The translations under genes and the position numbers were made by a program. Source: Gammaproteobacteria bacterium (GTDB lineage: Bacteria; Pseudomonadota; Gammaproteobacteria; Steroidobacterales; Steroidobacteraceae). Taken from it: 64,000 bases of DNA. The stretch covers positions 1-64,000 of the forward strand of contig PLAH01000040.1 of NCBI GenBank assembly GCA_003134045.1. Reading direction: 5' to 3'. Below the pieces are notes generated by a model. The model had not been told where the DNA came from. It saw nothing but the letters and a program-made list of their open reading frames with translations, and did no database searches. Position 1 is the first letter of the stretch. The number at the start of each line of letters is the position of its first letter. Positions 31,905-42,110 of the stretch are shown here, piece by piece.

Positions 31905-32407
31905 GCCAGATCGACCAGGAAGGCGCGCAGCAGCCGGCCGATGGTGCGGATCTGATCTTCCAGCCGGTGATCCGAGTCGAGCACGTGCAGCGCCGCTGAG
32001 CGCTCCTGCGCCCAGCGCACGCTATTGGCGATGGGCACGATGTCGTCGTGCCAGCCATGCACGACGACCGTGGGGCACGGGACATCCTGGGGCGTATAAG
32101 CCTCGAAGCCGGGCATATAGAACGCCGGCGCCAACAGAAACACTCCACGGGGCCTGACTCGGGCGGCGGCGGCGGCGGCCACGTGCCCACCGAGACTGGA
32201 ACCTACCAGCACCACCGGACCCGCGATGGCGGCGGCCGTCCGCACCAGTTTCTCGACCCGGGCGGCGGGGTCGTCCATGCCGCGATAGTCGACGGATTCC
32301 ACCGCCAGCTCGAGGTCGCGCGCCACCGCCGCCATGGCGGTAATCTTCGCGCCCCACGGCCCGCTTTCCTTGCCGTGTGAAAACACCACCGTATCGGATC
32401 GACTCAT
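31901..32407 (-). CDS. Alpha/beta hydrolase
   Basis: VFSHGKESGPWGAKITAMA, VVLVGSSLGGHVAAAAAAR, VVVHGWHDDIVP, DSDHRLED. Confidence 0.88.
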   Translation of the reverse strand: MSRSDTVVFSHGKESGPWGAKITAMAAVARDLELAVESVDYRGMDDPAARVEKLVRTAAAIAGPVVLVGSSLGGHVAAAAAARVRPRGVFLLAPAFYMPGFEAYTPQDVPCPTVVVHGWHDDIVPIANSVRWAQERSAALHVLDSDHRLEDQIRTIGRLLRAFLVDLA

Positions 32408-32465
32408 TTTACCTCGCTTGCCGCAACGCGCAATCAAGAAACCCATCCGCGGCCGTTATAAGAAC

Positions 32466-34250
32466 ATGGCATTGGAGGAAGAACCGTCGAGCGCACTACA
32501 GGCTATGCGCCCCGCGCTCGACTGTCTCCGGGATTGTGCCGATTTGGCCGACGTGGACGCCCCCTGCCTCGAGATACTGGCGGCCGCCGCGATCCAGTTC
32601 TCCCTGCCGGCCGGCAGCCCCCTGTACCAAGCGGGATCCGCCGGCGAGGGAGTATATCTGCTCGTCGGCGGCCGTTTGGGGGTGGCCGTCGCCGGCGGCG
32701 GCCCGTGGGTCGCGGAAATCGCCCGCGGCGAACTGGTGGGCGAGACCGGCTGGCTGCTCCGGGAACCCCATGGCGCCACCGTGGTGGCGCTGCGCGACAG
32801 CGAACTGCTGCTGATCCCGAATTCCCGCCTCGACGCGGCGACCGCGACCTCGACGTCGCTGTCGCTGGCGCTGGCTCGTCTGGCGGCGCGCCGCTTGCTT
32901 CGCAGCAAGCGTCCGGACCGCACACTCGAGCGGGCACGGGTCTTCGTCATCGTTCCCAACAACGAAGAAATCGATGTCGCCGAATTGGCGACTCGGCTGG
33001 TCGCCGAACTGTCCCGCGGCGGCTCGACCGAACTGGTGTGGGACGTGCGCGCCCGCACGCACACCGCGGCGTGGTTCAACCGCATCGAGGAGCTGAACGA
33101 TTACGTCGTGTATGTGGCGGATCCCACCGAATCGGCCTGGACGCGCCAATGTTGCCGACAGGCCGACGTGATCCTGCTGGCCGCCCGGGCCCGCGCCGGC
33201 GCACGTCCCTGGCCGATGAGCATTTCCGGGGCGGCGGTGGCGCGCGCTGCGCGCATCGAGCTCGCGCTGCTGCACGACGGCAGCTTCGAGGCGGGCGCCG
33301 CCACCCGCTGGCTCGCCGAGCTGCCGGCGGCCTCGCATCATCACCTGATCGACGCCGCCGATTTGGGCAGGATGGCGCGTCTGCTGACCCGGCGGGGAGT
33401 GGGATTGGTGCTGTCGGGCGGCGGCGCGCGCGGCTTTGCGCATCTCGGGATCGTTCGGGCGCTGCGGGAAGCGCGAATCCCCATCGATTTCGTGGGCGGC
33501 GCCAGCATCGGCGCCATCATCGCGGCGGGCGTTGCCATGGGGTGGAGCGATGAGGAGATGCGGCATCGCTACCGCCGCGGCTTCGTCGACAGCAATCCGG
33601 TGAACGACTATACCTTCCCGCTGGTCGCCCTGACACGCGGCCGCAAGGTGTCGCGTCTGTTGCAGCGTGAATACGGGGATGTGTTGATCGAGGATTTGCG
33701 TCACCCGTTCTTCTGCGTGAGCTCGAACCTGACCACCGGCCGAGCCTTCGAGCACCGCGCAGGTCCCGTGTCGCAGGCGCTGCGTGCGGCGGTCGCCATT
33801 CCCGGCGTGATGCCGCCGGTGCCCTGGGGCGACGATCTTCTGGTCGACGGCGCCGTCATCAACAATCTGCCCGTGGACGTAATGCAGCGCCACGCGCCGG
33901 GACTGGTGATCGGCAGCGATGTCGGCGCGGACCGCAGCCACAACGCGCAACGGCGTATGAACATCTTCCAGATCCTGATGCACTCAGGCATGGTCAACAG
34001 CGCCGCAACCGCCGCCGCGCAGCGCACGCTCGCCGACGTCTTGCTCAAACCGCCGCTCCCCAATATCGATCTTTTGAACTGGCGCGCGTTCGACCGCGCC
34101 ATCGAGGCCGGCTACCGCTACGCGCGGCAGGCACTGGAAGAACTGGCGGACATCCCGCGATTGGTCGCCGAGGTCGCCGAAACGCCGCACTCGAGCTCGC
34201 TGGCCGCGGAACTCGAGCGACGCGCGGCCGCTATGGCAGCAGCTGATTAG
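32466..34250 (+). CDS. Cyclic-nucleotide-binding-domain patatin-like phospholipase (NTE/RssA family)
   Basis: N-terminal cNMP-like domain (AGSAGEGVYLLVGGRLGVAV), C-terminal GLVLSGGGARGFAHLGIVRALREA, GASIGA, DGAVINNLPVDVM. Confidence 0.9.
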   Translation: MALEEEPSSALQAMRPALDCLRDCADLADVDAPCLEILAAAAIQFSLPAGSPLYQAGSAGEGVYLLVGGRLGVAVAGGGPWVAEIARGELVGETGWLLREPHGATVVALRDSELLLIPNSRLDAATATSTSLSLALARLAARRLLRSKRPDRTLERARVFVIVPNNEEIDVAELATRLVAELSRGGSTELVWDVRARTHTAAWFNRIEELNDYVVYVADPTESAWTRQCCRQADVILLAARARAGARPWPMSISGAAVARAARIELALLHDGSFEAGAATRWLAELPAASHHHLIDAADLGRMARLLTRRGVGLVLSGGGARGFAHLGIVRALREARIPIDFVGGASIGAIIAAGVAMGWSDEEMRHRYRRGFVDSNPVNDYTFPLVALTRGRKVSRLLQREYGDVLIEDLRHPFFCVSSNLTTGRAFEHRAGPVSQALRAAVAIPGVMPPVPWGDDLLVDGAVINNLPVDVMQRHAPGLVIGSDVGADRSHNAQRRMNIFQILMHSGMVNSAATAAAQRTLADVLLKPPLPNIDLLNWRAFDRAIEAGYRYARQALEELADIPRLVAEVAETPHSSSLAAELERRAAAMAAAD

Positions 34251-35871
34251 CGAGGCTTTCGACCCACGCGATTTCTGCGGGGCTGTATTGCACGGAGTTC
34301 AGGCGATTGAGACTTGCGGGGACGATCCGGCTGCCGGACGCCGAATGCGAAATCCGAAAACTATGGAATTCGCGGCGCCGCGCGGCCGCGAATCCGATCA
34401 GCAGCTGGAAGTCGCTCGAGGTCGCGCTCTGCTCGGAATTCAGCCGCCCGTCGCAGATCACGAAAAACGACTCTTCCAAGGGCCGGTCCGCAAACGCGCC
34501 CGCCGCGTGCAGCCGCTCGAAGAATCTGCGCACCTGCAGGGCCGCAAGTTCTGCAACGTCCAGATGCGGCCTGGCGAGCACCACCCAGCGGGTGCCGCGC
34601 TCCACGCAGTTGAGAATGAACAGCGCCAGGCGCCGCGCCGCGAGATTCTGCCAATCCGCCGCGCCTGCCGTGCCCGCCGCCAGCGTCCGCAGCTGCACAC
34701 CGATCCGCGCGGCCGATCGCACCGCTTGAATGGTATTCACGCCGAGAGCGGCCAGCCGCATGCGCTTGTCCTCCGAAACCAGGCAACTGGGCCTGAAACC
34801 GGGGCGCAATATCGCGTCCTCGACCTTCGCCGGACCCCACACCGGATGCTGCTCGTCCGACCGCGCCAGCGTCCCCGCCACCGCACCGCCGGGCGCGAAC
34901 GACTCGAAGTGGCCACGCAACTTGTCGTGCGCGAGAATTCGGGGGAAATACATGAGCGCATTCTCGGTCGAGAGATTCCATTGGCGCATGCCCGCGAGCG
35001 CCTCATCCGCGGTGTGCCAGTGCGCCGGCGGATCGACGATGAGCAAGGCGCGGCGCTCCTTGCAGAAGCGCGCCGCCACCAGCAAGGTGCCGGGCCCCAC
35101 GTCCTGCTCGCGCGACAGCGGCGGAATGCACAGCAAATTGAAGTGCTCGCCGGTGTCGAGCGCGAACAATCCGGACTTGTCGATCTCGGAGCCGATCACA
35201 TCGTAGTCCGTGAGCGGCGCCCCGTCATCGCCGGCATTCGAACTGACGTAGCGGGTGGCGAGCCCGCTGGTGGCGTCCAGGGTGCGATCGGGACGCTCCG
35301 TGGGCACCTCCCCGGCCAGCTGCACGAGTTCCGACTCCGCCAGCAGCGCACCCACGTAGCGCTCGGCCTCGGGCGCGATCGAGGCCCGCAGAAATATCTC
35401 CTGGTCTTCGATCTGTTGCGTCCCTTGCACGCGCACCCGTTGCACGGTCAGATTGAATTCCGTCGCGCCGGCCACGGGCACATTGTCGTAGTCGACGCTG
35501 GCGCGCAGAAATTCCCGGGTCCCCGGGCGCATGGCCCGCAGACGCAAGCAACCGGCGCCGGCATGCAGCGTCAATGTGGCCGGCCGGGCTCCATTGGCCA
35601 CGCGTACGACCAGCGCTTCACGACCGCCATTGTCGAAGAACTGTTCCACGGCATATCCCAACGGGCTCGGCTGCCATAGGCCGCCGAACATGGATTGGAA
35701 TTCCGCGAAGCTGCGCAGAAAGAGGGGGCGGTTGACCGGCCCACGCAGCGTGCGGCCCACGAACGCGGTACGCGCAGTGCCTAGGCGCGCGATGTTCTGG
35801 TCAGGACCACGTTCTTCTTCGACCCGGATCCCCAGGCCGTTCGGCATCACCAAGCAATTCCCCTGGGACAA
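34231..35871 (-). CDS. Orphan phage-tail-sheath-family protein (contractile injection system sheath-like)
   Basis: 546 aa; N-terminal GIRVEEERGPDQNIARLGTARTAFVGRTLRGPVNRPLFLRSFAEFQSMFGG..YAVEQFFDNGGREALVVRVA, C-terminal ALFILNCVERGTRWVVLARPHLDVAELAALQVRRFFERLHAAGAF...FFVICDGRLN typical of tail sheath proteins. Confidence 0.88.
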   Translation of the reverse strand: MSQGNCLVMPNGLGIRVEEERGPDQNIARLGTARTAFVGRTLRGPVNRPLFLRSFAEFQSMFGGLWQPSPLGYAVEQFFDNGGREALVVRVANGARPATLTLHAGAGCLRLRAMRPGTREFLRASVDYDNVPVAGATEFNLTVQRVRVQGTQQIEDQEIFLRASIAPEAERYVGALLAESELVQLAGEVPTERPDRTLDATSGLATRYVSSNAGDDGAPLTDYDVIGSEIDKSGLFALDTGEHFNLLCIPPLSREQDVGPGTLLVAARFCKERRALLIVDPPAHWHTADEALAGMRQWNLSTENALMYFPRILAHDKLRGHFESFAPGGAVAGTLARSDEQHPVWGPAKVEDAILRPGFRPSCLVSEDKRMRLAALGVNTIQAVRSAARIGVQLRTLAAGTAGAADWQNLAARRLALFILNCVERGTRWVVLARPHLDVAELAALQVRRFFERLHAAGAFADRPLEESFFVICDGRLNSEQSATSSDFQLLIGFAAARRREFHSFRISHSASGSRIVPASLNRLNSVQYSPAEIAWVESLANQLLP

Positions 35872-35914: not shown

Positions 35915-36601
35915 TCAAGGCGCGAACAGCGGCACCTCGCGGCGCTTGAACAGCGGCACGAGCAACATACCCGCCAGAAAGCCGCCGATGTGCGCGCGGA
36001 ACGCCACGCTCGACCCGCCGCCATGGACCGCAAGATCGCTCACCAGCTGCACTGCGAACCACAGCAGCAACAGCAGCATGGCAGGGAGCCTGAGCGTGGT
36101 GAAGAAGAACGGCAGCAGCACCAACGTGAGTACTTGGGCGCGCGGGAACAGCAGCAGATACGCGCCGAGCACGCCCGAAATCGCGCCGCTCGCGCCGATG
36201 ATGGGATAGGCGGAATGCGGCTGGGACAGCGCCTGGGCGCAGATCGCGGCCGCGCCGCACAGGACATAGAACAGCAAATAGCGTGCATGACCCATCGAGT
36301 CCTCGACGTTGTCGCCGTAGATCCACAGATACAGCATGTTGCCGAGCAGATGCAGCCAGCCGCCGTGGAGAAACATGGACGTGAACGGCGAGGCGTAGCG
36401 GGGTATCCATTGCAGATCGGGCGGCAAGCGTGCGTCGGTCAGCAGGACGGCGGGAATGGCCCCGAGCGCGGCGACCACGCGGCGGCTCATCGCCGCGTCC
36501 AGCGAGCGCTGCCAAAGGAACACGGCACAGCACACGGCGATGAGCGAGGTCGTCACATAAGGCCTGAGCGCCGACGGCGTGTCATCCTTCAGCGGAATCA
36601 T
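35915..36601 (-). CDS. Rhomboid-family intramembrane serine protease
   Basis: MFLHGGWLHLLGNMLYLWIYGDNVEDSMGH, IGASGAISGVLGAYLLLFP, AHIGGFLAGMLL. Confidence 0.95.
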   Translation of the reverse strand: MIPLKDDTPSALRPYVTTSLIAVCCAVFLWQRSLDAAMSRRVVAALGAIPAVLLTDARLPPDLQWIPRYASPFTSMFLHGGWLHLLGNMLYLWIYGDNVEDSMGHARYLLFYVLCGAAAICAQALSQPHSAYPIIGASGAISGVLGAYLLLFPRAQVLTLVLLPFFFTTLRLPAMLLLLLWFAVQLVSDLAVHGGGSSVAFRAHIGGFLAGMLLVPLFKRREVPLFAP

Positions 36602-36640: not shown

Positions 36641-36784
36641 TCAAGAGTCGCGCAGCGGCGCGCTCGGTGCCACCGGCGCCTCGTGCTCGGTTCGACGGCG
36701 CTCCAGTTCGATCCGCTCCTGCTCGGCCTCGGTCTTCTTGCGCGCGATCTCATCGAGCATCACCTTCATCCATTCACTGCTCAT
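36641..36784 (-). CDS. Small hypothetical protein (47 aa)
   Basis: MSSEWMKVMLDEIARKKTEAEQERIELERRRTEHEAPVAPSAPLRDS; overlaps M1 peptidase stop. Confidence 0.5.
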   Translation of the reverse strand: MSSEWMKVMLDEIARKKTEAEQERIELERRRTEHEAPVAPSAPLRDS

Positions 36785-38708
36785 CGGACTCCTCGGACGG
36801 CGGATTGAGGATCGCATCGATGGCCGCAACCGTTTCCGGGTGGTACCCGGGACGCGCCAATGCATACACCCGCTTCGCCTGCGCGGCGCCGGCGGGCGTT
36901 TTCATCAATTCCTCGTACAGCGGGGCGATGAGTTTGCGGCGGCCGATCGTCTGCAAATAATCCTCGAGTCGACCGTAGCCCGGCTGATAGCGGCTGCGGA
37001 TCACCAACAGGAACCAGCTATGGCCGATTTCGGCATTGGCCGTGTGCGTGAATTCGAACCACTGGTCGAGCTCCTTCATCTGCGCCGTGCTCAAACTTGC
37101 CGGCATATTATCCAGGAAATACAGCCATTGCTGCGCCGCCCAACCGCTCGAATCCAGTTTCAGTCGCTTGGGGGCCAGGCCGCCGCCGAGCCACGCCGCG
37201 CGCGCCTGATCCACCGGCGCAAACTCGCCCGACACCGGCAGCACCGCATCGTCCGGCAGGCCGGGTGCGGACACCCAGGCCGTCACTTCATCGCGGCTGA
37301 CCACGCCGGGATAGCGGTCGAGCAAATTCTCCTGAAGATAGGCTGCGAATTGCTCGGTGGTAATGCTCTTGAAGGCAAAATGATCGAAATAGCCGCGCAG
37401 GAACGCGTCGAAATGGTCGCGTCCGAACTTGGCGTCGAGATAGGTCAGAAACAGCCGGCCCTTTTCGTAGGGTATGGCGCTGAACACCGCGTCCGGATCG
37501 CGGCCCCGCAGATCGATCGCGAGAATCTGATCCGCGGGCTCGAGCCTGGCCAAGTCGTCCCGCAACTCCCGCAGACCCAACACCCGCTCCATCATCTCGC
37601 GCTTCTCGCCGTACACCGCGCCGACGATGCGGCTCTCCAGATAATCGGTGAACCCTTCGTTGAGCCACAGGTCGCGCCAGGTGGCGTTGCTCACCAGATT
37701 GCCCGACCAGGAATGCGCCAACTCGTGCGCGATCACCGAGACCAGACTTTTATCGCCGGCGATCACCGTCGGCGTGATGAACGACAAGCGCGGATTCTCC
37801 ATGCCGCCCACGGGGAAACTCGGCGGCAGCACCAAGATGTCGTAGCGGTCCCAGCGATAAGGCCCGAACAGCTTCTCGCTGGTTTCGATCATGGACTCGG
37901 TGTCGGCGAACTCCTGGGCGGCGGCCTTCACCAGGGGCTTCTCCGCATAGACGCCGGTCCGGGGTCCGGTCTCCTTGAACGCAAGGTCGCCGACGGCGAG
38001 CGCGATCAGATAGGAGGGCACGGCTTCCGGCATGGTGAACGTGTACAGCCCGTTGCGCGGCGCCTTCGGATCGTTCTTGGCGCTCATCACCGCCACCACG
38101 TCCGTGGGAGTATGGATGGTGGCCGTATAGGTGACCCGAACCTGGGGTGTGTCCTGCAACGGGATCCAGCTGCGGGCACCGATGGGTTCGGACTGGGTGT
38201 AGAAAAAGCCGCGTTTCTTCCCGGCGGTTTGTCGCGGCGTCAGCCATTGCAGGGCGGGCGCGGTGGGCGAGGTCTCATAGTCGATGCGCACGAACAGCGT
38301 CGGCTTGGTCGACGGCGGCACTTCGATCACGAGCGCCTGGCCCAGGATGGGGTCCTTCTTCTGAAAATGAAACGGACGGCTCACCCAGGTGGTTTCGCTC
38401 TTGGAGGTCGCGCCGAGCACGTCCTGCGCCTTCACGGTGACATCGCTCACGTTCAAATCGCGCGTGTCGAGAATGAGCTCGGTCGCGTTCGGATCGAGGC
38501 GTTTGATCTGCAGTCCGACCACGCCGCGCAGGGTTTTGAAGTAAGGATCGACGCGCAGATCGAGTTCCAGACGCGTCACCCGAAACTGCTCGACGTTGGC
38601 GAAGGAATGGTAATCGAGTCCCGGCTGCATCGGCGCAAGGTCGGCCGCCGCAGCGCCGGCCAGACTCAAACCCGTGAGCACCAGGCCCGCGAGACAAGAA
38701 CGGAGCAT
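36774..38708 (-). CDS. M1 family metallopeptidase (aminopeptidase / LTA4-hydrolase-like)
   Basis: GGMENPRLSFITPTVIAGDKSLVSVIAHELAHSWSGNLVSNATWRDLWLNEGFTDYLE; signal peptide. Confidence 0.96.
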   Translation of the reverse strand: MLRSCLAGLVLTGLSLAGAAAADLAPMQPGLDYHSFANVEQFRVTRLELDLRVDPYFKTLRGVVGLQIKRLDPNATELILDTRDLNVSDVTVKAQDVLGATSKSETTWVSRPFHFQKKDPILGQALVIEVPPSTKPTLFVRIDYETSPTAPALQWLTPRQTAGKKRGFFYTQSEPIGARSWIPLQDTPQVRVTYTATIHTPTDVVAVMSAKNDPKAPRNGLYTFTMPEAVPSYLIALAVGDLAFKETGPRTGVYAEKPLVKAAAQEFADTESMIETSEKLFGPYRWDRYDILVLPPSFPVGGMENPRLSFITPTVIAGDKSLVSVIAHELAHSWSGNLVSNATWRDLWLNEGFTDYLESRIVGAVYGEKREMMERVLGLRELRDDLARLEPADQILAIDLRGRDPDAVFSAIPYEKGRLFLTYLDAKFGRDHFDAFLRGYFDHFAFKSITTEQFAAYLQENLLDRYPGVVSRDEVTAWVSAPGLPDDAVLPVSGEFAPVDQARAAWLGGGLAPKRLKLDSSGWAAQQWLYFLDNMPASLSTAQMKELDQWFEFTHTANAEIGHSWFLLVIRSRYQPGYGRLEDYLQTIGRRKLIAPLYEELMKTPAGAAQAKRVYALARPGYHPETVAAIDAILNPPSEESDEQ

Positions 38709-38723
38709 GACGATCTCGATTGC

Positions 38724-39947
38724 TTATTGCGTGGAGGGTTGCGACTGACTGACCGGCGGCGCCTTGGCCTGGCCGTTGACGAGGTCGTTGAAGGTCTTCT
38801 CGTCGACCAGCAGTCCCGTTTTGCCGTCCCAATTCGATCCTTCCGGCAGACTATTCTCGACCAGCAGGGACTGGGAAACCACGGCATCGACGCCGTCGTG
38901 GCCGCCGGTCACGGGCACCGGAACGGCGCGCGGCGAGTGGGCAAGATCGCCGACCCGCTGCCAGTCGATGTCGTTGTCCTGAGCCGACACTTCCTTTTGA
39001 TCCGAGGCTTGTTTGCGGGCCTTCGGGCTCAAGAGATGCGCGAGCAGCCGGTTGCGGTTCCTGCTCCAGTCGCGCGAATCGTCCTCCATGACCGCATACG
39101 CCTGAAAGTACAGCGTGCCCTCGCGCCGGCCGAACAGATACGGCTGATTGACCACCGTGACTTTCGTGCCGATCGGAATCAAGTCGAAGAACACGGCGAT
39201 ATCCTCCGGATACAGCCGCATGCAGCCGTGACTCGAGCGCATGCCCACCCCGTACGGTTTGTTGGTGCCGTGAATGAGGTAACTGGGCCAGCTCAAGCGG
39301 AACATGTACTGGCCCAAGGGATTGTCGGGGCCGGCGGGGACGGTCGCGGGCAGCTTCTCGCCGTTCTCGGCGTGCTCATCCCGCACGGATTTGGGCACCA
39401 CCCACACCGGATCCTTGGTGCGGCTGACGATTTTGGCGGTGCCTTCGGGGGTCCTCCAGCCCACTCGGCCGATCCCGATGGGATGGGTGTACACGACCGG
39501 CTGCTCGCCCTTCTTGTGCGGCGGGTAGTAGAAAATGCGCATCGCGGCCACGTCCACCACCACCCCCTCATGGGGCGCCGCCGGCAGAACGAACTGCGTC
39601 GGCACGACCACCTCGCGCCCCACTCCCGGCAGCCACGCATCGACGCCGGGATTCGCGAGCAGGATTTCTTCGTAGCCCACGTCGAACCGGCGTGCGATAT
39701 CGGGCAGCGTATCTTCCTTGCCGACCACGGTTTTTTGCACGTAGCCGACGACCTCGGTGTTCGCGTCGATCTCGAATCGGTGAGTGGCCACCGGCTTCGG
39801 CAATTCGGGGGCGGGAGGCGCTTCCTTCACGACGGGCGGCGGTTCATGAGACACGCGATGGAACAGCGAGCAGCCGGCAACACTCGATCCCAGCAGCAGC
39901 GCCGACAGCATCCGCCGGTGTGACCATTCGATTACAGCTTTTACCAT
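38724..39947 (-). CDS. L,D-transpeptidase (YkuD domain) with LysM-like region
   Basis: VGKEDTLPDIARRFDVGYEEILLANPGVDAWLPGVG, YLIHGTNKPYGVGMRSSHGCMRLYPEDIAVFF. Confidence 0.95.
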   Translation of the reverse strand: MVKAVIEWSHRRMLSALLLGSSVAGCSLFHRVSHEPPPVVKEAPPAPELPKPVATHRFEIDANTEVVGYVQKTVVGKEDTLPDIARRFDVGYEEILLANPGVDAWLPGVGREVVVPTQFVLPAAPHEGVVVDVAAMRIFYYPPHKKGEQPVVYTHPIGIGRVGWRTPEGTAKIVSRTKDPVWVVPKSVRDEHAENGEKLPATVPAGPDNPLGQYMFRLSWPSYLIHGTNKPYGVGMRSSHGCMRLYPEDIAVFFDLIPIGTKVTVVNQPYLFGRREGTLYFQAYAVMEDDSRDWSRNRNRLLAHLLSPKARKQASDQKEVSAQDNDIDWQRVGDLAHSPRAVPVPVTGGHDGVDAVVSQSLLVENSLPEGSNWDGKTGLLVDEKTFNDLVNGQAKAPPVSQSQPSTQ

Positions 39948-39955
39948 GCGCCTAT

Positions 39956-40468
39956 CTACAGCAAAGTCGGGCGGTCAGGCAATTGGTTGCGCGCGGCGAC
40001 AGGGTGACCGGGTACCGGCGGGAAGTGGCGGGCCAGCAACGTCCCGACCGCGTCGACCCCGGCGATCGCCCCGGCCTGGAAGCGTCCGGCCCGGAAATGT
40101 TCTTCCATGAGCCGGCAGACGGCCTCCCACTCGGCCGGGCTCACATGCCCCTGAAAACCGCGGTCCGCGACGATTTCCACGCCTCGATCCGCCAGCTGAA
40201 CGTAAATGAGCACGCCATTGTTGTGTTCCGTGTCCCACACCCGTAGCTGGGCAAATACGTCGAGCGCGCGGGCGCGGGCACTCATTTCGTTGAGGATGTG
40301 CAACGGCGCGAGCGAGGTCTCGATCGCGAAACGAATCTCGCCGGCATGCGTCCGCTCGGCGCGGCCCACGGCCGCTTCGATGGCATCCAGCGCGGTCTTC
40401 GGGAACAGCAGCCGCGTTCGCCAATGCGGCGCCACCACATGCCGCAGCAGACGCGTGAGGCGCATCAC
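39956..40468 (-). CDS. TPM-domain protein
   Basis: AERTHAGEIRFAIETSLAP...VWDTEHNNGVLIYVQLADRGVEIVADRGFQGHV. Confidence 0.82.
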   Translation of the reverse strand: MMRLTRLLRHVVAPHWRTRLLFPKTALDAIEAAVGRAERTHAGEIRFAIETSLAPLHILNEMSARARALDVFAQLRVWDTEHNNGVLIYVQLADRGVEIVADRGFQGHVSPAEWEAVCRLMEEHFRAGRFQAGAIAGVDAVGTLLARHFPPVPGHPVAARNQLPDRPTLL

Positions 40469-41352
40469 CAGCTACCCGAGGCGCCGCCGCCGCTGAAGCC
40501 GCCGCCGCCGCCGCCGAAACCGCCACCGCCGCTGCGGCCGCCGAAGCCCCCGCCCAATCCGCCCCCGAATCCGCCACCCCAGCCGCCGCCGCCCGCCGAC
40601 CAGCCGCGCGAGGACCCGAGCAACAGCGCGAACAAGAATCCGATCACCCCGGCCCCCACGCCGACGGGCAGCAGGTGACTCAACAACCACGCGATACCGC
40701 CCGCGAGACCGCCGGTCGCAATCGACCCGAACAGCCGTCCGAACAGGCTGCGCAACACGCCGCTGGCGACGAAAACGACGACCAGCAGCAGCGGCAACAG
40801 ATTGCCCAAGCCGCCGTGGCGCTCCCACTTCTTGTCGGGTTCCGGTAACGGTTCGCCATTGACCACGGCAACGATTTGATCGACGCCGGCCTCGATGCCG
40901 CCGTCGTAGTCGCCGAGCTTGAAATGCGGCGTGATGGTGTCGGTGATGATGCGATTTGCGATCGCGTCGGGAAGCGCGCCCTCCAATCCCCGGCCCACTT
41001 CGATGCGCACGCGGCGGTCGTTCTTGGCGACCAGCAGGATCGCACCGTCATCGACGCCCTTGCGGCCCAGTTTCCACTGGTCGGCGACACGGATGCCGTA
41101 CTGCTCGATTTCTTCCGGCTGGGTGGTGGGCACGATCAGAACGGCGATCTGGCTCCCCTTCTGAGCCTCGAAAGCCGCCAGCTTGGTCTCCATCCGGTTC
41201 ACCGTCTCGCCGGAGAGCGTGCCGGTCAAATCGGTCACCCGCGCCGTCAGCTGCGGCACCGCCACGTCGGCGCGGGCAAACAGCGCGACCAGCAGCAGCG
41301 CGCTGGTGGCAATCCGACCGAGGCGGTTCGACTGAATCACTCGGGAGGGAAC
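40465..41352 (-). CDS. TPM-domain protein (YgcG-like) with Gly-rich C-terminus
   Basis: VTDLTGTLSGETVNRMETKLAAFEAQKGSQIAVLIVPTTQPEEIEQYGIRVADQWKLGRKGVDDGAILLVAKNDRRVRIEVG; GGGFGGGGGGFSGGGASGSW tail; start inferred. Confidence 0.9.
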   Translation of the reverse strand, partial: VPSRVIQSNRLGRIATSALLLVALFARADVAVPQLTARVTDLTGTLSGETVNRMETKLAAFEAQKGSQIAVLIVPTTQPEEIEQYGIRVADQWKLGRKGVDDGAILLVAKNDRRVRIEVGRGLEGALPDAIANRIITDTITPHFKLGDYDGGIEAGVDQIVAVVNGEPLPEPDKKWERHGGLGNLLPLLLVVVFVASGVLRSLFGRLFGSIATGGLAGGIAWLLSHLLPVGVGAGVIGFLFALLLGSSRGWSAGGGGWGGGFGGGLGGGFGGRSGGGGFGGGGGGFSGGGASGSW

Positions 41353-41356
41353 CCTG

Positions 41357-42055
41357 CTAAGGAGCCCGCGTTCGGTCCGGCGCGGCGGGTGCGGCACCGG
41401 GTGTCGCCGCGGGGGGCGGTCCGTTCATGGCGGGAGCAGTCGCCGGCGGCAGCGCCCCGGCGGAAGGTCCGCCGAAGTCCACGGTGGGCGGCTTGGAGAT
41501 CACCGCTTCGTTCTCGACCGCAAAATTGGGTTTCGGTTTGTAGCCAAAGGCCATGGCCGTCAAATTGCCGGGGAAGGAGCGCACCGTGACGTTGTAGTTC
41601 TGCACCGCCTGGATGTAGCGATTGCGGGCCACCGTGATGCGATTTTCCGTACCCTCGAGCTGCGCCTGCAAATCGCGGAAATTCTGATCGGACTTCAATT
41701 GCGGGTAGTTCTCCGTGACCACCATGAGACGCGACAGCGCGCCGGACAGCTCGCCCTGCGCCGCTTGAAATTTGGCGAACGCAGCGGGGTCGTTGACCAG
41801 TTCGGGGGTCGCCCGGATCGAGCCGACCTTGGCGCGCGCGTCGGTCACCCCCAACAGAACGGTCTGCTCCTGGATGGCGAAACCCTTGACGGTGTTCACT
41901 AAATTCGGAATCAGATCGGCGCGCCGCTGATATTGGTTGAGGACTTCAGACCAGGCCGATTTGACCTGTTCATCCTGCGCCTGCATGGCGTTGTAACCAC
42001 AGCCCGACAAGAGCAAACCGGCGAACATCAGCAGGACCGAAGCGCGTTTTCCCAT
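41357..42055 (-). CDS. lemA: LemA family lipoprotein
   Basis: LLMFAGLLLSGCGYNAMQAQDEQVKSAWSEVLNQYQRRADLIPNLVNTVKGFA. Confidence 0.95.
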   Translation of the reverse strand: MGKRASVLLMFAGLLLSGCGYNAMQAQDEQVKSAWSEVLNQYQRRADLIPNLVNTVKGFAIQEQTVLLGVTDARAKVGSIRATPELVNDPAAFAKFQAAQGELSGALSRLMVVTENYPQLKSDQNFRDLQAQLEGTENRITVARNRYIQAVQNYNVTVRSFPGNLTAMAFGYKPKPNFAVENEAVISKPPTVDFGGPSAGALPPATAPAMNGPPPAATPGAAPAAPDRTRAP

Positions 42056-42110
42056 GATCGACCCCTTCGCCCCTCGAATTGGGAGCACGGTACGGAGTCT
42101 ACCACCGACT

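Follow-up and report, generated by a model that had tools for sequence, protein, structure and literature searches.

A solitary homologue of contractile sheath proteins at a conserved chromosomal site in Steroidobacterales

The sheath gene and its chromosomal site

The window, by which we mean the whole stretch of 64,000 nucleotides analysed, encodes on its reverse strand a homologue of the sheaths of contractile injection systems. The open reading frame (34231-35871) is intact. Translation probably starts not at the TTG at 35871 but at the ATG at 35847, where close relatives also begin and just ahead of which there is an AGGGGA-like ribosome-binding sequence. The gene then occupies 34231..35847 and encodes 538 residues plus a stop codon; the in-frame stretch upstream of it (35848..35871, reverse strand) is probably untranslated and contains the likely ribosome-binding site. 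A scan for promoters and terminators returned nothing promoter-like, and no more terminators than chance would give.

Residues 1-24 (35776..35847, reverse strand, as are the regions that follow) form the N-terminal linker, or arm, in which the motif (M)P..YPGVY..E..SG.R...GV of extracellular contractile injection system (eCIS) sheaths is mostly lost. The protrusion part, residues 25-330 (34858..35775), is the most conserved region of the solitary clade, whose members keep the motifs AFVGRTLRGP, FGGLWQPS, PGTREFLRASVDYDN, EDQE and DGDDG..LTDYD.IGS. Residues 331-505 (34333..34857) comprise the handshake domain, which forms the mesh and faces the tube, together with the C-terminal arm. This region is relaxed, and the eCIS motifs R-G-V-x-K-A-P-A-G, W-G-A-R-T-L and P-L-x-P-A-E-F-V are degraded in it. 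An extra C-terminal tail, residues 506-538 (34234..34332), is poorly conserved and has a predicted helix at 523-536.

Directly upstream of the sheath gene, at a distance of 67 bp, is a rhomboid intramembrane protease (35915..36601). Beyond it on the same reverse strand lie an M1 aminopeptidase (36774..38708), an L,D-transpeptidase with LysM and YkuD domains (38724..39947), a TPM-domain protein (39956..40468), a TPM-domain membrane protein (40465..41397) and a LemA family protein (41357..42088, start uncertain). On the other side, a convergent phospholipase gene on the forward strand (32334..34250) encodes Patatin, NTE P-loop and cNMP domains, and the 3' ends of the two genes overlap by 20 bp (34231 versus 34250). 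The initial annotation had described this overlap and had named a cNMP-domain patatin and a rhomboid protease as flanking genes; Pfam domains bear out both identities. Its statement that the neighbours are cellular genes also holds: among the genes called, which were tested in part against Pfam, no phage structural or integrase gene occurs nearby, and the site is a syntenic chromosomal one.

Gene calls in relatives came from a simple caller backed by tblastn. They place the sheath at a conserved site that follows lemA-TPM-TPM-L,D-transpeptidase(-M1)-rhomboid. The L,D-transpeptidase is the most conserved neighbour, found upstream on the same strand in 58 of 61 Steroidobacteraceae loci and in 10 of 20 loci of other families, and TPM and LemA genes lie beyond it in 48-49 of the 61. 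The M1 aminopeptidase occurs no more than 1.2 kb upstream of the sheath in 25/75 family loci. In other families, genes for an M48 peptidase, a SohB-type S49 peptidase and a lipA-like protein are found upstream of the transpeptidase; several families have lost the transpeptidase adjacency, some of them having PALP and EamA genes divergently upstream instead. The rhomboid adjoins the sheath in the genus of the window, in the small-genome genus g12 and in two other families, a recurrence across lineages which suggests that the order L,D-transpeptidase, rhomboid, sheath may be ancestral. Small-genome g12 species have lost the sheath and retain the LemA-TPM-TPM-L,D-transpeptidase(-rhomboid) block, along with plsB, so the neighbours do not depend on the sheath; a larger g12 genome, G089, keeps the sheath in place.

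The patatin-sheath-rhomboid order singled out in the initial annotation thus recurs on its rhomboid side; the patatin is downstream of the sheath in only 22 of 81 family loci and is probably not part of the unit. Two further candidates for membership, a hydantoinase A/B fusion and a cobalamin adenosyltransferase, were rejected because each varies between genera. The fusion is a protein of about 1200 residues (L034:3790-7371 and similar loci), and its gene converges on that of the sheath at 38/81 loci in the family and at 7/21 in other families.

Sheath identity and the search for injection machinery

The window protein is a sheath protein, with an identity far above chance. It matches the tail sheath family PHROG_23 over residues 14-497 (1.3e-21), sheaths of contractile injection systems solved in the PDB (7.5e-25 to 2.6e-22), and, in a profile search, a sheath at 3.5e-52. 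A profile of 59 sequences reaches both T4 gp18 (9.5e-06) and the pyocin sheath PA0622 (2.7e-12), distant homologues that are virion or tailocin parts with their own tube and baseplate. Profile-profile comparison of solitary with eCIS sheaths gives 2e-82. Pfam and NCBIfam searches with the window protein itself found no match; among 59 relatives (E<=0.01), Phage_sheath_1C is recognized in 33 and Phage_sheath_1 in 17. The AlphaFold model (pLDDT 86.7, pTM 0.84) retains the whole sheath fold. The sheath call of the initial annotation is therefore confirmed by family, structure, profile and fold matches; as to its sheath-like N- and C-terminal segments, the homology stands and the terminal hallmark motifs have been lost.

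Foldseek matches listed as best for the model are sheaths of contractile injection systems and phages, the top one being a contractile injection system sheath at 8.3e-29. The sheath of H. borinquense (9ezm, 8e-29) and Cis2, from the cytoplasmic contractile injection system of Streptomyces coelicolor (8bky, 8bl4, 9gtp; 1e-17), share the fold and also match in sequence. Both are functional contractile sheaths around a tube, whereas the solitary protein has a degraded N-terminal linker and no tube in its genome. The contractile sheath superfamily also includes TssB/TssC, the two-subunit sheath encoded with the type VI secretion (T6SS) cluster; the searches listed here gave no match to it.

The closest relatives outside the order lie on replicons of Rhizobiaceae, Novosphingobium and Streptomyces, beside tube, cap, ATPase, eCIS_core and spike genes. 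The eCIS sheaths of Rhizobiaceae and Streptomyces plasmids are 32-33% identical to the window protein over about 90% of its length, and share with the solitary sheaths the motifs AFVGR..RG, FGGLW, GDDG, RRLALFI and GAF. In the clusters used for comparison (Ciceribacter NZ_CP059897.1, Ensifer NZ_CP030264.1 and S. europaeiscabiei NZ_CP109155.1), the sheath gene adjoins genes for a PF06841 tube, an AAA ATPase, a Pvc16_N cap, eCIS_core and Phage_base_V; the solitary gene does not. Four eCIS-type clusters on Rhizobiaceae and Novosphingobium megaplasmids (L003, L005, L006, L007) are without annotated features in the plasmid collection.

The initial annotation had allowed for a tube or baseplate encoded elsewhere as a partner for the sheath, a proposal that the genome searches contradict. 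The genome of the window has no PF06841 tube, no Baseplate_J and no Phage_base_V spike. Since this assembly is fragmented (197 contigs, 96.8% complete) and contaminated (6.3%), the argument for missing machinery rests on relatives, several of them single-contig genomes. The tube family PF06841 (Phage_T4_gp19) occurs in 8/200 genomes of the family and 8/196 of the order and is absent from 96%; genomes with a strong tube match mostly show extra sheath matches elsewhere. In 12 genomes, of which six are single-contig, neither Baseplate_J nor the Phage_base_V spike OB domain was found. Across 79 loci no eCIS marker, the AAA+ ATPase and the DUF4255/Pvc16 cap included, occurs within 10 kb of the sheath. 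In two genomes that show no obvious injection system, PF06841 gave weak or partial tube-like matches, at L178 (G073:C52) and L177 (G032:C8).

Distribution and ancestry

Orthologues of the solitary sheath are present in 171 of 200 Steroidobacteraceae genomes and in each of the 25 genera sampled, almost always as a single copy and at 45-74% identity. Across the order, a large group living in soil and water, matches occur in 143 of 196 genomes, of which about 141 reach E<=1e-60. Elsewhere in the class, the strong matches whose surroundings were inspected are in eCIS clusters only, with tube, cap and ATPase genes. Scans of genome contigs returned no matches with a single sequence as query and 174 with an alignment. 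The genome of the window has no second convincing sheath. Phage records gave no match to the window sheath, and a scan of viral contigs (IMG/VR) gave three only, at 36-37% identity. These contigs, L219, L220 and L221, are classed as viral and are perhaps misclassified eCIS fragments.

In a maximum-likelihood tree of 60 sheaths, all orthologues from the order form one group apart from the eCIS sheaths, with a branch of length 0.63 and support of 100/100 between the two. The Steroidobacteraceae sheaths are monophyletic (100/99). The tree is rooted at its midpoint, so a single origin, though the simplest reading, is not proven. The closest copies, compared in pairs, have dN/dS of 0.06-0.32, values that mark purifying selection and are not those of a pseudogene, and none of the copies sampled has an in-frame stop. 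A recent phage insertion was considered and rejected in view of near-universal presence in the family, the single clade, purifying selection and clean loss in small genomes.

The gene thus has its ancestry in an eCIS-type sheath; it is solitary across the order, inherited vertically at a fixed site and held under purifying selection, with no tube, spike or baseplate alongside. It is a domesticated cellular gene, one of the two readings that the initial annotation had offered for an orphan sheath kept intact.

Inverted constraint and proposed function

A sheath subunit consists of a handshake domain, which forms a mesh around the tube together with the linkers of neighbouring subunits, and a protrusion domain (PMC8195476); contraction is controlled by the N-terminal linker (PMC10066040). 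We took residues 1-24 and 331-505 of the window protein as the handshake part and residues 25-330 as the protrusion, a boundary set from sequence and the literature and not by superposition of coordinates. The ratio of handshake to protrusion tree length is 1.68 in Steroidobacteraceae, 1.51 in other families and 0.33 in 13 eCIS sheaths. In eCIS sheaths, that is, the handshake evolves about three times slower than the protrusion, and in solitary sheaths 1.5-1.7 times faster. Ratios of p-distances agree, at 1.46 (1.33-1.61) for solitary against 0.51 (0.44-0.58) for eCIS sheaths. The inversion, a pattern new here, is robust to column bootstraps and to boundaries shifted between 280 and 345.

At equal overall divergence, arm identities are 29-36% in solitary and 71-76% in eCIS sheaths. 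The eCIS sheaths have retained the motifs of both linker arms, and their handshake domain evolves slowly. In solitary sheaths, unlike these, the eCIS-invariant P-G-V-Y, S-G-x-R and G-V residues of the N-terminal arm are mostly lost, as are the R-G-V-x-K-A-P-A-G loop, the W-G of W-G-A-R-T-L and P-L-x-P-A-E-F-V in the handshake and C-terminal arm. Judged from the alignments, the solitary sheaths appear to lack intact arms of the kind that complete the handshake beta sheet of a neighbouring subunit. Conversely, E112, Y120, D121, Q136, R137, Q149, Y215 and D216 of the protrusion are invariant or nearly so in the solitary clade and not in eCIS sheaths. R405, R406, W421, G450 and others in the handshake core are still conserved, which indicates that the handshake fold is kept and that some self-assembly could persist.

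The explanation we favour, with some confidence, is a domesticated sheath that no longer acts as a contractile spring and in which the protrusion does the work, perhaps in maintaining the envelope. A sheath of an eCIS-type contractile system would have become a solitary, vertically inherited gene of the order; release of the mesh-binding handshake domain and the linker arms from constraint suggests that the contractile, tube-gripping function is gone. The outward-facing protrusion would be the part conserved, its clade-specific invariant residues marking a functional surface. Most likely the protein would be soluble, or of low-order assembly, in the cytoplasm, with the protrusion serving as a binding scaffold. 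That the protein would help to maintain the envelope, together with the L,D-transpeptidase, rhomboid protease and LemA/TPM genes that run in the same direction, is a more weakly drawn step, and the link, taken from genomic context, is speculative. We are evenly divided on the full history: one capture in the ancestor of Steroidobacterales, loss of spring and tube grip, and then a near-core protein whose outer domain has a new job, plausibly envelope maintenance alongside the L,D-transpeptidase and rhomboid protease.

Sheaths can assemble without a tube, T4 gp18 forming polysheath. The new role proposed as an example in the initial annotation, a cytoplasmic filament in which the sheath still polymerises and serves as a structural tubule without a tube, would fit the retention of the whole fold and of several invariant handshake core residues. 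A filament would, however, be expected to conserve its interfaces; the linker motifs that complete the beta sheet between subunits are lost or variable and the handshake is the fastest-evolving part, a pattern that counts against the filament. We regard it as unlikely, so that of this proposal domestication stands and the filament is disfavoured.

More doubtful still is a ligand-binding or catalytic protein in which the beta domain of the protrusion has become an active site. The polar residues (near-)invariant in solitary but not eCIS sheaths would suit one, several of them on the adjacent predicted strands 113-119, 130-138 and 146-156. Foldseek of the protrusion domain, however, gave significant matches to sheaths only and no enzyme fold, so no activity is indicated; C2- and fibronectin-like matches at E>=0.29 were set aside as evidence.

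It seems improbable that the protein is a decoy or inhibitor, co-polymerising with sheaths from infecting phages or from injection systems and so spoiling their assembly. Homology to functional sheaths would permit it, and one-sided loss of a linker arm could end polymer growth, but the part touching foreign sheaths would then be the least constrained part. The gene also differs from most defence genes in being ancient, vertically inherited and syntenic among housekeeping genes, and no diversifying selection is seen (dN/dS at most 0.32).

That the gene belongs to a functioning contractile injection system or tailocin, with tube, baseplate and spike encoded elsewhere in the genome, is very improbable. 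Some family genomes do carry a separate injection-system or phage tube, and the clusters that hold its eCIS relatives are complete; against this stand the rarity of the tube gene, the extra sheaths that usually accompany it and the lack of Baseplate_J and spike in all 12 genomes. Inverted constraint and loss of both arm motifs argue against a hidden injection system and a classical sheath polymer alike. The loss of every other eCIS gene from the locus and the dispensability of the sheath in small-genome species might suggest a functionless, decaying relic of a lost eCIS, a reading refuted by the open copies present in every genus sampled from the family, on which purifying selection has acted for as long as the order has existed.

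To our knowledge, no sheath has been described outside a contractile machine. Our search of the open-access literature in PMC found no description of such a solitary sheath. If the domesticated, machine-free reading is true, the solitary sheath would clearly exemplify the exaptation of a structural protein of phage origin to a role without its machine, and hundreds of carrier genomes would gain a testable core gene of unknown function. For surveys there is a warning: annotation as "phage tail sheath" in such genomes does not imply an injection system.

Two individual sheaths deserve mention. L197 (G583:C3:385211-386725), the second sheath of a genome of family f2, groups with the eCIS sheaths and keeps both canonical arms; it has no eCIS markers nearby and no tube match reported for its genome, and is perhaps an independent, younger orphan. 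Among solitary sheaths, L184 (f188; G571:C5) lies closest to the eCIS side in the tree. Its ends are more eCIS-like (DTGIYVA..., VKCDRETTTEED...), and it may be an intermediate in the loss of handshake function.
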